Part shown: piece after piece, positions 13,718 through 19,663 of the stretch | Layout of the letters: the number at the start of each line of letters is the position of its first letter | Position numbering within the stretch: position 1 is the first letter of the stretch | From: Nocardiopsis sp. MG754419 | Lineage (GTDB): Bacteria; Actinomycetota; Actinomycetes; Streptosporangiales; Streptosporangiaceae | Assembly: GCF_018207095.1 (NCBI RefSeq) | Contig: NZ_QOCZ01000002.1 | Span: 1-64,000, forward strand | Length of the DNA: 64,000 bases | Direction: 5' to 3' | Translations under genes and position numbers: made by a program | Notes under the pieces: model-generated | What the model was told of the DNA's origin: nothing | Databases searched by the model: none | What the model saw: only the letters and a program-made list of their open reading frames with translations

Positions 13718-13759
13718 CCACGGGGTGGTGTACCCGACCACAGGGTGAGGTGGTGGACG

Positions 13760-14410
13760 ATGAGCGCGGTCGAGAGCGCCCCCTGCAAGCTCACGGTCTG
13801 CCGCGGGTGTTGCTGCGGCACCAAGAAGAAGGTGCCGGGCGTCGACCACAAGGCGCAGCTGGCGAGGCTGAGCGCCATCGACGATCACGCCGCGCGCCGT
13901 GTCCCGGTCCGGACCAGTAAGTGCCTGGGCATCTGTTTCCAGGCCAACGTCGTCGTGGTCCAACCCTCCGCCGAAGGACGCGCCGCCGGTGGCCGCCCCG
14001 TCTGGCTCGGCGCGATCACCGAGGACAAGCTCCTGGACGCCGTCGACGACTGGATCTTCGAGGGCGGTCCCGGCGTGGCACCGCTGCCGGCCGTCCTGGA
14101 GGAGCACGTCACCTCCAAGGACGCCAAGAAGCCGAAGAAGCGCAAGAAGTCCGAACGTTCCAAGGCCGCGAAGAAGGAACGCAAGAAGGCCGGGAAGAAG
14201 GCGAAGAAGGCCGAGAAGAAGGCCGAGAAGAAGGCCGGAGGGGCCGACGCGGACGGCAGACCCGAGAAGCCGAAGCCCGCGAAGCCGGAGAAGGCGGGCA
14301 CGTCCGAGAAGACGAAGAAGGCCGAGAAGGCGAAGAAGGGCAAGAAGTCCAAGAAGGACGAGAAGTCCAAGAAGGGCAAGAAGTCCGAGAGGCGCGGCGA
14401 GGAGAACTAG
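13760..14410 (+). CDS. (2Fe-2S) ferredoxin-domain protein with long Lys-rich tail
   Basis: A 216-residue protein. Residues 1-115 form a thioredoxin-like [2Fe-2S] ferredoxin domain: cysteines 14, 17, 18 and 19 in 'VCRGCCCGTKKK' and 55 and 59 in 'SKCLGICF' supply candidate cluster ligands. From about residue 120 the protein becomes a low-complexity tail of about 95 residues made almost only of K, E, A, S, R, G and P ('KKPKKRKKSERSKAAKKERK' and similar). The tail resembles nucleic-acid- or polyanion-binding tails of actinobacterial proteins. The domain suggests electron transfer or cluster binding; the partner is unknown. ATG 13760 has 'GAGGTGGTGG' upstream. Confidence 0.75.
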   Translation: MSAVESAPCKLTVCRGCCCGTKKKVPGVDHKAQLARLSAIDDHAARRVPVRTSKCLGICFQANVVVVQPSAEGRAAGGRPVWLGAITEDKLLDAVDDWIFEGGPGVAPLPAVLEEHVTSKDAKKPKKRKKSERSKAAKKERKKAGKKAKKAEKKAEKKAGGADADGRPEKPKPAKPEKAGTSEKTKKAEKAKKGKKSKKDEKSKKGKKSERRGEEN

Positions 14411-16419: not shown

Positions 16420-16929
16420 TCAGAGGGAGTGTGCGAGGCGGCCGAGCGCCGCCGTGGTGGAGCGCCCCGGTGTGAAGGGCAGCTCCCACGCCTGGGCACC
16501 GAGCGCCTCCGCGCCGCGGATCTTGGCCTGGGTGAAGCGGTCGCCCGCGGTGAAGGCCAGGGCCGCGGGGGCCAGCGGACGCAGGAGCTCCGCGTAGGCC
16601 GACCAGTCGGCGACCGCCGGGGGGCCGTCGATGATGAAGGAACCCGCCACGCAGGACAGGGCGGCGATGGTCTCGGCCCGCTCCGCGTCGGGGTTCACCG
16701 GCCGTCCAGGGCCCTTCCAGGCGTGTACGCGCCCGTCGGACTCGAGGCCGACCACCAGGGGCAGGCCGCGCTCGGCGATGGATCGCAGGAAGCGGATGTG
16801 TCCCACGTGCAGGACGTCGAAGACGCCGGTGACCACGACCGGACGGTCGAGGACCTCCGGCCGTTCGAACCAACGGACACTGAGCGGCGCCGGCGCCTGG
16901 TGCGCCTCACCGGTATCCGATTCCCGCAT
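16420..16929 (-). CDS. Cytidylyltransferase-like nucleotidyltransferase (RfaE2/TagD type)
   Basis: A 169-residue protein with the HxGH nucleotidyltransferase signature 'TGVFDVLHVGHIRFL' (His41, His44) and the C-terminal 'GRSTTAAL', which matches the 'STT' motif of RfaE2/HldE and glycerol-phosphate cytidylyltransferase enzymes. Such enzymes activate a sugar or polyol phosphate with CTP or ATP; the substrate here is unknown. The frame is open upstream to 17085, but ATG 16929 is chosen because GGAGG precedes it and family homology starts there. The first 20 residues are a low-homology extension. It may be co-transcribed with the ABC exporter downstream. Confidence 0.82.
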   Translation of the reverse strand: MRESDTGEAHQAPAPLSVRWFERPEVLDRPVVVTGVFDVLHVGHIRFLRSIAERGLPLVVGLESDGRVHAWKGPGRPVNPDAERAETIAALSCVAGSFIIDGPPAVADWSAYAELLRPLAPAALAFTAGDRFTQAKIRGAEALGAQAWELPFTPGRSTTAALGRLAHSL

Positions 16930-17170
16930 GTGGTCCCCGTTCCCTCCGTGCGAGTGAGGGGCGCCCGCACTCGATCGTGCCGACGGGTCCGCCCGAAAGG
17001 TCAACGTACCCCGCGGGCAGGGGTATTCCGTCTCGGGGACGCGTGACCGAACAACGTTCAGGTGGAACCGTCCGATTCGTGACACCTCGTTGTGAGCCGC
17101 CCCACCCGAACCGTCGACCGATGTGATGCGTCACACATGCTGTACGGGCGTGGAGAAAGGTGGTCGGAAC

Positions 17171-17437
17171 ATGGGTTGGGTGCTCGTCGTCGAGGAGTCG
17201 GTGGGGTCCGGGCAGAACATCCGCTGGGGTGTGGGCCGGGTCCAAGGGACCTACGAGGAACCGGAGCGGGCCCGGGAGGAGGGACTGCGACTGGCGAGGG
17301 AGTACGAGCCCAGGCATCCGTGGTCGCAGGAGGGGCGACGGATCTACCGGCTGTCGGAGGACGTGCATCTCGTCAACGTCCAGGGGGCCACGTCCTCGTT
17401 CCACTTCCGGGTGAGTGTGGCCGAACGCGTCGAATGA
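17171..17437 (+). CDS. Small conserved-looking hypothetical protein
   Basis: An 88-residue soluble protein ('MGWVLVVEESVGSGQNIRWG', '...YRLSEDVHLVNVQGATSSFH', ending 'VSVAERVE'). GAAAGGTGG precedes ATG 17171. It has mixed charge with alternating hydrophobics, suggestive of a small beta-rich domain. I recognise no family. An upstream in-frame ATG at 17123 exists, but its leader is cysteine-rich and lacks a ribosome-binding site. The neighbour on the left is divergent. Confidence 0.6.
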   Translation: MGWVLVVEESVGSGQNIRWGVGRVQGTYEEPERAREEGLRLAREYEPRHPWSQEGRRIYRLSEDVHLVNVQGATSSFHFRVSVAERVE

Positions 17438-17522
17438 GGGCGCGGGCCGGGGGAGCCGTCGCACGGAGGACGGAGCGCGGGCCGTGGCCGCTCGGTGCGT
17501 ACTCCGTTTTCCGGTGGTGCGA

Positions 17523-17748
17523 GGTCGTCCCCTGGGGGTGCCGGTGAAGTGAGCCGGTGGCTTGAGGTGCACGGTTCGCTTCGAGAGGAGCGGGGGTTCG
17601 GGGGTCGTCCCCTGGGGGTGCCGGTGAAGTGAGCCGGTGGCTTGAGGTGCACGGTTCGCTTCGAGTGGAGCGGGGGTTCGGGGGTCGTCCCCTGGGTGTA
17701 ACGGCGAAGCGAGCCGGTGCCTTCAGGCACACGACTCGCTTCGAGAGG
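17523..17748 (-). repeat. Three tandem 80-bp hairpin repeats abutting tRNA-Gly
   Basis: Three copies start at 17523, 17603 and 17683 with a period of exactly 80 bp. Copies 1 and 2 differ by about one base; copy 3 is diverged and runs into the 3' end of tRNA-Gly. On the tRNA strand each unit holds a hairpin. In copy 3 the outer stem is CGAAGCGAG (17705-17713)/CTCGCTTCG (17735-17743) and the inner stem GTGCC (17717-17721)/GGCAC (17726-17730). Copies 1 and 2 keep the outer stem with substitutions that are mostly tolerated as G-U pairs. They look like serial terminator or trailer hairpins downstream of the tRNA. Confidence 0.8.
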
Positions 17749-17819
17749 AGCGGGCGACGAGAATCGAACTCGCACAACCAGCTTGGAAGGCTGGGGTTCT
17801 ACCATTGAACTACGCCCGC
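17749..17819 (-). tRNA. tRNA-Gly (anticodon TCC)
   Basis: The reverse complement folds as a 71-nt cloverleaf: acceptor GCGGGCG pairs with CGCCCGC, discriminator T. The D-arm has 'AGTTCAATGGTAGAAC', the anticodon loop 'CTTCCAA' gives anticodon TCC, and the T-arm 'GAGTTCGATTCTC' contains the TTCGA signature. CCA is not encoded. Confidence 0.95.
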
Positions 17820-17936
17820 GTGGCGCCAGGGACTTTGAGTTTCCTCTAGACTCGTGGAGCCGACGGAGACAAGAGTACAGTCTCCGGGGCGGTGGTCGCA
17901 CACCCGATGTCGGGTTCGTGTGTCCTCGCCGGGTCA

Positions 17937-18011
17937 CGGGGTGTAGCGCAGCTTGGTTAGCGCGCATGCTTTGGGAGCATGAGGCCGCGGGTTCGAATCC
18001 CGCCACCCCGA
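17937..18011 (+). tRNA. tRNA-Pro (anticodon TGG)
   Basis: A 75-nt cloverleaf: acceptor CGGGGTG pairs with CACCCCG, discriminator A. The D-arm is 'GCGCAGCTTGGTTAGCGC', the anticodon arm 'GCATGCTTTGGGAGCATG' gives anticodon TGG, and the T-arm is 'CGGGTTCGAATCCCG'. CCA is not encoded. It is divergent from tRNA-Gly with 117 bp between them. Confidence 0.95.
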
Positions 18012-18044
18012 CGAAACCCTCCTCGGTCGTCCGGCCTCCAGGCC

Positions 18045-18060
18045 GGGGGCCGTGGCCCCC
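18045..18060 (+). terminator. Hairpin downstream of tRNA-Pro
   Basis: GGGGGCC (18045-18051) pairs with GGCCCCC (18054-18060). The 2-nt apparent loop means the top pairs must open. It lies 34 nt after the tRNA and before the tig leader. Confidence 0.45.
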
Positions 18061-18238
18061 TGCGTATCTGCCCTAGACTTGGTGCGATCAGCAGGAAACC
18101 GTAAGTCCCAGCCCGTCGCAGGGCACCCCAGTAGAACGTGGTCATGACCGACCGGGGTGCGCGCGTGCATTCGCCGTTCGTGTGGTGCGCCTGCGGGCCG
18201 ACGTGGACACCAGCCGGCAAACCTAGGAGTACCGCCCC

Positions 18239-19663
18239 GTGAAGACCGATGTCGAGGAGCTCAGCCCGACCCGGGTCAAGCTGACCATCGAGGTGCCCTT
18301 CGAGGAGCTCGAGCACGCTTTCGACGAGACCTACAAGTCGCTCGCGAAGCAGGTTCGGATCAAGGGCTTCCGCCCGGGCAAGGCACCGGCGCGGCTGATC
18401 GACCGCTACGTCGGCCGAGGTGCGGTGATCAGCGAAGCGGTCAACCACGCCGTTCCGGAGCTCTACAACGAAGCCATCCAGAAGGAGGAGATCTTCGCGC
18501 TCGGTCAGCCCGACGTGGAGGTCACCAAGCTGGAGGACAACGACGAGCTCGCCTTCACCGCCGAGGTCGACATCCGACCCAAGTTCGAGGTGAAGGACTA
18601 CAAGGGCATCGAGGTGACCGTCGACAACGCGGCCGTCACCGACGAGCAGATCGATGAGCAGATCGGCACCCTGCGCGAGCGTTTCTCCACGCTCGTGGGC
18701 GCCGACCGCCCCGTCGAGGACGGCGACCACCTGTCCATCGACCTGTCCGCCGCCATCGATGGTGAGAAGCTCGAGGACGTGGCCGTGAGCGGCTACTCCT
18801 ACGAGGTCGGCACCAACACCATGCTGGAGGGCCTCGACGAGACCCTGCGCGGCATGGAGTCCGGTGGCGAGGCCACCTTCAAGACCACCCTGGTGGGTGG
18901 CGAGCACGAGGGCCGTGAGGCCGACGTCACCGTCACCGTGCACTCGGTGAAGGTGAAGGAGCTGCCGGAGCTGGACGACGAGTTCGCCCAGCTGGCCTCG
19001 GAGTTCGACACCATCGACGAGCTGCGTGAGGACGTGCGTACGCGCATGGCCGACATGCGTCGTATGCAGCAGCTGTCCGCCGCCCGTGACAAGGCGCTGG
19101 AGAAGCTCATCGAGTCCGTCGAGGTCCCGCTGCCCGACGCGGTCGTCGACGAGGAGATCACCCGTCGTCGTCAGAGCCTGGAGCAGCAGCTCGGTCAGAG
19201 CGGTCTGACCAAGGAGGCCTACCTCGAGTCGCAGGAGAAGACCGAGGAGGAGTTCGAGGAGGAGCTCAAGACCGGCGCCAACTCGGCGGTCAAGGCGGGC
19301 TTCATCCTCGACCAGCTGGCCCTCCAGGAGGACCTGAGCGCCGACCAGGGCGAGCTCAGCCAGTACGTGTTCGAGCAGGCCCAGCGCATGGGCGTCAGCC
19401 CGGACCAGCTGGCCCAGCACCTGGTCGAGTCGAACCAGATCCGGGTCGCCTTCACCGAGGTCGTCCGCGGTAAGGCCATGGACCTGGTCCTGGCCGACGC
19501 CAAGGTGACCGACGAGGACGGCAACGCCATCGAGACGCCGAAGACCGACGCGGACGCCGTGGAGGAGGCCGCCAAGGCCGCCGCCGCCGTGGCCGAGGAG
19601 GCCGGTGACGCCGACGTGGCCGAGACCGCCGACGAGGACACCGCCAAGGACGACACCAAGTAG
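18239..19663 (+). CDS. tig: Trigger factor (ribosome-bound chaperone/PPIase)
   Basis: Binds at the ribosomal exit tunnel and shields nascent chains; also a peptidyl-prolyl isomerase. The 474-residue protein has the N-terminal ribosome-binding domain with signature 'GFRPGKAP' (43-50), the FKBP-type PPIase domain (about 155-245, 'DGDHLSIDLSA', 'MLEGLDETLRGMESG') and the C-terminal helical arm domain. A low-complexity Ala/Asp/Glu tail of about 45 residues ends the protein, common in actinobacteria. GTG 18239 follows 'CCTAGGAGTACC', a clear ribosome-binding site. It heads the tig-clpP1-clpP2-clpX block, with a terminator between tig and clpP1. Confidence 0.97.
   Translation: MKTDVEELSPTRVKLTIEVPFEELEHAFDETYKSLAKQVRIKGFRPGKAPARLIDRYVGRGAVISEAVNHAVPELYNEAIQKEEIFALGQPDVEVTKLEDNDELAFTAEVDIRPKFEVKDYKGIEVTVDNAAVTDEQIDEQIGTLRERFSTLVGADRPVEDGDHLSIDLSAAIDGEKLEDVAVSGYSYEVGTNTMLEGLDETLRGMESGGEATFKTTLVGGEHEGREADVTVTVHSVKVKELPELDDEFAQLASEFDTIDELREDVRTRMADMRRMQQLSAARDKALEKLIESVEVPLPDAVVDEEITRRRQSLEQQLGQSGLTKEAYLESQEKTEEEFEEELKTGANSAVKAGFILDQLALQEDLSADQGELSQYVFEQAQRMGVSPDQLAQHLVESNQIRVAFTEVVRGKAMDLVLADAKVTDEDGNAIETPKTDADAVEEAAKAAAAVAEEAGDADVAETADEDTAKDDTK

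Follow-up and report, generated by a model that had tools for sequence, protein, structure and literature searches.

A tandem array of hairpin modules behind tRNA-Gly(TCC) in Nocardiopsis, with a covarying proximal hairpin and decaying distal copies

The tRNA-Gly(TCC) locus and its array

The window analysed here is a 64,000-nt stretch of the Nocardiopsis sp. MG754419 genome (contig NZ_QOCZ01000002.1, positions 1 to 64,000). Within it, three direct copies of an 80-nt sequence were found between the tRNA-Gly(TCC) gene and a small convergent ORF (Table 1). The spacing of the copies, which together span 17523-17762, was exactly 80 and 80 nt, in agreement with an earlier note that had described three 80-bp hairpin repeats at the 3' end of tRNA-Gly. 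The TRF score of the array (380) was the highest among the 13 rows returned for the window. Because tRNA-Gly(TCC) is encoded on the minus strand, the array constitutes its 3' trailer or flank and is read from right to left. The repeat self-match begins at -8, such that the array overlaps the tRNA acceptor end by about 8 nt; the unit nearest to the tRNA thus does merge with the acceptor end, as had been proposed. When compared with the first copy (from 17523), the other two copies were 99% and 79% identical, respectively, and the copy adjoining tRNA-Gly was the most different of the three.

Each unit opens with the last bases of the acceptor stem; then come a hairpin in which a single U is bulged (hairpin A), a C-rich spacer, and a second hairpin (hairpin B). 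The core of hairpin B is GGGGRCGACCCCC, and its usual form across units is GGGGGACGACCCCC. When the unit was used as a BLAST query against its own genome, no other match below E 0.1 was obtained, and a covariance model of the unit retrieved the three copies listed in Table 1 and nothing else below E 0.02. Moreover, among the 58 tRNA flanks of this genome, a tandem hairpin was present in only one, that of tRNA-Gly(TCC) (score 126). The next best flank belonged to a duplicated tRNA-Glu pair (score 76), and all others scored 21 or less. In that pair, tRNA-Glu(CTC) and its flank are duplicated at an offset of 188 nt beside tRNA-Gln(CTG) (L142 685-1070; C335:59600-61400 in the same genome).

The start of the convergent ORF was inferred from the length of its conserved part. 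This ORF had no Pfam or NCBIfam match over the cut-off (a weak YafO_toxin hit, E 0.17, fell below threshold), and homologues were present at 16 of the 51 loci compared below.

Table 1. Features of the tRNA-Gly(TCC) locus and its surroundings in the window
Feature	Position	Strand	Description and evidence
Lysine/alanine-rich coding repeats (periods 9-36)	14161-14390	+	C-terminus of a cysteine-bearing small protein (ORF 13745-14410)
Nucleotidyltransferase gene	16420-17085	-	Cytidylyltransferase-like, RfaE domain II-like; next gene on the tRNA strand
Small convergent ORF	17171-17437	+	88 aa from MGWVLVVEES (listed as 104 aa from 17123)
Direct copy, first	17523-17602		80 nt
Direct copy, second	17603-17682		80 nt
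Direct copy, third	17683-17762		80 nt
Unit 3, distal, decayed; hairpin B incomplete	17515-17592	-	Covariance model R1 45.3 bits; 10/16 pairs
Unit 2, distal, decayed on the tRNA strand	17594-17672	-	R1 55.6 bits; 10/16 pairs
Unit 1, tRNA-proximal: last tRNA bases, hairpin A and hairpin B	17674-17752	-	R1 92 bits, E 3.0e-18; covariation
Hairpin B of unit 1 (GGGGACGACCCCC)	17680-17693	-	Genus- and family-wide motif; sequence, pattern searches
Hairpin A of unit 1	17705-17743	-	12-bp outer and 5-bp inner stem, one bulged U; inverted repeat, fold, dG -30.9
tRNA-Gly, anticodon TCC	17747-17819	-	ARAGORN; Rfam RF00005, 70.9 bits
tRNA-Pro(TGG)	17937-18012	+	

Proximal and distal hairpins across the genus

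A total of 51 distinct loci were compared, drawn from 39 of 40 genus genomes and 12 named outgroups; the remaining genome (G019) gave no tRNA-Gly(TCC) locus match, and 39 were therefore examined. Units at the relatives' loci were detected with a profile built from first units. According to the earlier note, absence of the unit from close relatives and a lack of transcription through it would reduce it to a chance local duplication. The unit was found to be widespread in the genus, and the comparison with relatives did not refute the note: two to five units were present at 22 of the 39 loci, one at 6, and none at 11. No units were detected at the 12 outgroup loci. By sequence inspection, the unit-less loci, outgroups included, usually carried a single ordinary hairpin, often with a T-run. 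Self-match lags in the 22 arrays ranged from 77 to 86 nt. On a tig tree (about 990 nt), arrays were placed mainly in one part of the genus, some members of which are without units, and copy number varied between close sisters.

Some further features of these loci were recorded. The divergent tRNA-Gly(TCC)/tRNA-Pro(TGG) pair upstream of tig is kept from Nocardiopsis to Thermobifida and Streptomyces (loci L021-L095), and neither tRNA was visible at the incomplete locus L062. In the tRNA-Gly 3' flanks of L050, L045, and L067, further tandem or tRNA-like stretches with abundant GCGCTCGC lie behind the first hairpin; at L067, ARAGORN reported a tRNA-Gly(CCC)-like stretch at 2336-2406.

On the tRNA strand, the proximal unit of the window folded at -38.6 kcal/mol (z -3.97). 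When proximal hairpin A was aligned across 28 species, 95.5% of cells were paired, compared with 38-48% in slid controls. Nine of its 21 pairs had changed on both sides (5.1 ± 1.2 in shuffles, 1 of 500 of which scored as high), and its covariation was 0.267 vs. 0.173 in shuffles, a value that 0 of 500 reached. Selection thus acts on proximal hairpin A as RNA, on the tRNA strand. Given this strong covariation, it is probably, on sequence grounds, a functional 3' terminator or trailer element of tRNA-Gly. A stable 3' hairpin conserved by covariation, one mark of an intrinsic terminator, was found in unit 1 only; a U-run following the stem, another such mark, was lacking, and a terminator scan of 17100-18250 returned 0 (0.4 expected). 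With no good U-run at the proximal hairpin, its reading as an intrinsic terminator draws on position and covariation, and a hairpin for processing or stability would be an equally good fit.

The distal units behaved differently. Units 2 and 3 folded at -17.8 and -17.8 kcal/mol (z -0.19 and 0.05, respectively) on the tRNA strand, where the window's two distal hairpins kept 10 of 16 pairs, with five A.C and one other mismatch. The five A.C pairs correspond to G.U pairs on the plus strand. In the 71 units with a complete hairpin A that were used, proximal cells on the tRNA strand comprised 393 Watson-Crick (WC), 37 G.U, 11 A.C, and 7 mismatches, and distal cells 537 WC, 90 A.C, 36 G.U, and 25 mismatches. 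The claim that the substitutions are largely compatible with pairing therefore holds on the plus strand but not on the tRNA strand, and the RNA-level selection deduced from it applies to the proximal copy and not to the distal copies, which have lost pairing on the tRNA strand. For the same reason, the suggestion that the repeats are serial working terminators for the tRNA was unsupported. Likewise, the unit nearest to the tRNA does differ most, as had been noted, but it is the conserved copy rather than a derived one; it is the others that have decayed. Moreover, the nearest relative of 35 of the 43 distal units was a unit of their own genome, which indicates that copies were made or homogenised within a genome. 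The distal copies are thus subject to concerted birth and decay, and only the first copy is held to tRNA-strand pairing.

The module at other RNA genes and its known counterparts

A search for the hairpin-B motif GGGGRCGACCCCCNGACCCC that allowed up to one mismatch found it in 35 of the 40 genus genomes, and a reversed control gave none. We scored 64 motif clusters, all outside the tRNA-Gly(TCC) loci of the genus. Fifty-four were on the same strand and no farther than 120 nt from the 3' end of a tRNA or tmRNA gene, five lay farther downstream, and five had no RNA gene called upstream, at least two of which (L190 and L231) look like chance; 23 of the 64 were tandem. At these other RNA genes, the repeat match begins 0-17 nt inside the trailer. 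Exact GGGGRCGACCCCCNGACCCC matches occurred in 129 of the 341 family genomes; the reversed control gave 0 among the matches listed. Of 30 motif loci in other genera, 12 had a tRNA or tmRNA end no more than 150 nt away, and some of the rest lay behind protein genes or unidentified sequence. Hairpin B is thus a family-wide dispersed palindrome, tied in Nocardiopsis to the 3' ends of stable RNAs. At family loci in G063, G116, G188, and G194, GGGGRCGACCCCCNGACCCC was also seen in tandem with a 35-36 bp period.

The closest known kind to the tRNA-Gly array is the tRNA-linked repeats (TLRs) of E. coli. Knowledge of tRNA 3'-end repeats in E. coli goes back to 1978. Twenty-two TLRs, distributed over ten loci and each carrying 18-19 bp from the end of the RNA gene, are described in PMC8144298, a 2021 paper according to which TLRs were until then without known function. 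Like the array, TLRs (tyrT-tyrV, rttR, rrA/rrB/rrF) are tandem or single repeats directly 3' of stable RNA genes (tRNA or rRNA), occur at several loci per genome, and have a unit that starts at the RNA 3' end. However, the tyrV tandem as computed here has a period of 178 and begins 19 nt inside the tRNA, whereas the Nocardiopsis units measure 77-86 bp, repeat 0-7 nt of the tRNA (22 arrays) rather than 18-19, and themselves contain a covarying 3' hairpin. Nor was a sequence relation found: when the array was compared by blastn with the E. coli tyrT-tyrV region only, the best E was 0.52, no similarity beyond chance. Lacking the 18-19-bp copy of the RNA end, the array is TLR-like in its working yet without the feature that defines a TLR.

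Two other kinds of element share part of this anatomy. Dual or clustered intrinsic terminators (rrnB T1-T2; the hairpin clusters of PMC8355165, for which poly-A/U trails are reported as not necessary) also place successive hairpins at a 3' end, but in the array each hairpin is a sequence copy of the others, the copies are homogenised within genomes, and the pairing of the later ones is disrupted on the transcribed strand. Given its occurrence across the family, hairpin B (GGGGRCGACCCCC followed by NGACCCC) resembles the REP-like dispersed extragenic palindromes, from which it differs in its Nocardiopsis tie to stable-RNA 3' ends. No account of such arrays in actinobacteria was found in the literature searched, which lay mostly outside subscription journals.

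Origin of the array and the one-sided change of its distal copies

We consider it likely that the array is a tRNA-Gly(TCC) 3'-end module amplified in tandem by local duplication, with the first copy functional and the rest decaying; as a mechanism, one working 3' hairpin with decaying duplicates is the most likely. The module would comprise hairpin A directly after the acceptor together with hairpin B. Selection on the tRNA strand would maintain its first copy, which would end or trim the tRNA transcript. The extra copies would arise from misalignment of the C-rich tail of hairpin B with the C-rich tRNA end, and would then be homogenised within the genome, decay, and be gained and lost between sister species. 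Both the role of hairpin A in terminating or delimiting the transcript and the origin of the copies by slippage or unequal recombination are inferred.

Simple neutral decay does not predict how the distal hairpins have changed. When pairs that are WC in unit 1 were followed into the later units on the tRNA strand, 58 had become A.C and 3 G.U in 20 arrays, changes being counted once per genome and column with kinship ignored (L033 and L046, whose second hairpins are incomplete, were dropped from the 22 array genomes). Seventeen genomes leaned toward A.C, none leaned the other way, and three were tied. Because A.C on the tRNA strand is G.U on the plus strand, pairing at these changed sites survives only in opposite-strand RNA. 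Regional mutation bias was rejected as the cause: the K (G or T) fraction of flanking intergenic sequence was 0.45 in genomes with units, and module copies at other RNA genes showed the opposite trend (9 WC>AC vs. 26 WC>GU), although 24 of the 39 "second copies" in this comparison were offset by more than 100 nt and may be related modules rather than tandem duplicates. Four-fold sites, used as a further check on mutation bias, gave mixed results confounded by codon use.

Two candidate accounts, strand specialisation and a rut-like role, could explain the bias. Under the former, the array would be a strand-specialised bidirectional insulator, its proximal copy stopping tRNA transcripts and its distal hairpins stopping plus-strand RNA, whether from the convergent gene or antisense, before the tRNA gene. 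In addition to the lean toward G.U on the plus strand and its non-regional character, this account would fit the distal plus-strand folds, which stay stable (in the window, -20.7 vs. -10.8 kcal/mol), and the rarity of transversions in stems relative to sequence outside hairpin A (p 0.0013). However, presence of the convergent ORF made no difference to the bias (25:1 where it occurs, 24:2 where it is missing), by which termination of that gene was rejected as the only explanation for the distal copies. Loops and the bulge were as strongly biased as stems (15:1 vs. 74:8; stem vs. loop p=1), and stems were at least as changeable as spacer (97/658 vs. 43/331 sites). Furthermore, placing the same changes at random yielded nearly the same plus-strand energy (mean z -0.64), a comparison with little signal, and the plus strand has no U-run after the hairpin. 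We therefore judge an insulator unlikely. The evolutionary claim behind it, that duplicated terminators have split the strands, with selection for tRNA-transcript pairing acting on the proximal one and the distal ones held to opposite-strand pairing only, appears rather unlikely.

A rut is a Rho loading site of unstructured, C-rich, and G-poor RNA, and under the second account the distal copies would supply such RNA on the tRNA strand, with Rho finishing read-through past the first hairpin. The distal copies do lose structure on that strand, the bias extends to loops, and distal-stem losses fell on G at 39 of 237 sites and T at 38 of 97, but on C at only 4 of 221. Outside hairpin A, however, no lean toward A/C was seen, changes to and from these bases being equally common (K>M 22, M>K 25), and a rut-like role is in our view also improbable. 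tRNA genes are common integration sites, and the array could instead be a scar of repeated mobile-element integration and excision, with att-like direct repeats; recombination of this sort at the tRNA 3' end had been suggested earlier. In 6 of the 22 arrays, a 9-nt identity precedes the hairpin of a later unit, and 7 of these nucleotides belong to the tRNA. Nevertheless, at most 7 nt of tRNA is repeated, in place of the substantial tRNA 3' segment expected of an att site, and at other RNA genes the match starts within the trailer. No integrase was present among the two neighbouring proteins scanned, no cargo was seen between units in the arrays inspected, and an integrative element, phage, or plasmid origin was rejected, as the array had no match in the phages or plasmids searched. 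We regard such a scar as very unlikely. A Guanidine-II-like riboswitch, with paired hairpins bearing ACGA loops, was suggested by two sub-threshold Rfam matches (17.7 and 17.4 bits). The better of these falls well short of the gathering score of 32 bits, by which a riboswitch identity was rejected; the loop differs between species (GCGA, ACGC, and others), and no guanidine gene was present among the two neighbouring proteins scanned, leaving this identity extremely improbable.

On the preferred reading, of one working 3' hairpin with decaying duplicates, one to five copies at one orthologous tRNA, together with the module at other stable RNAs, form a natural series in which one can trace how copied terminators arise, are homogenised, and decay. 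Were the strand split true, the array would be a one-locus insulator that evolved by strand subfunctionalisation of copied hairpins. The one-sided decay offers a clean test of whether the extra copies serve the other strand, Rho, or nothing.
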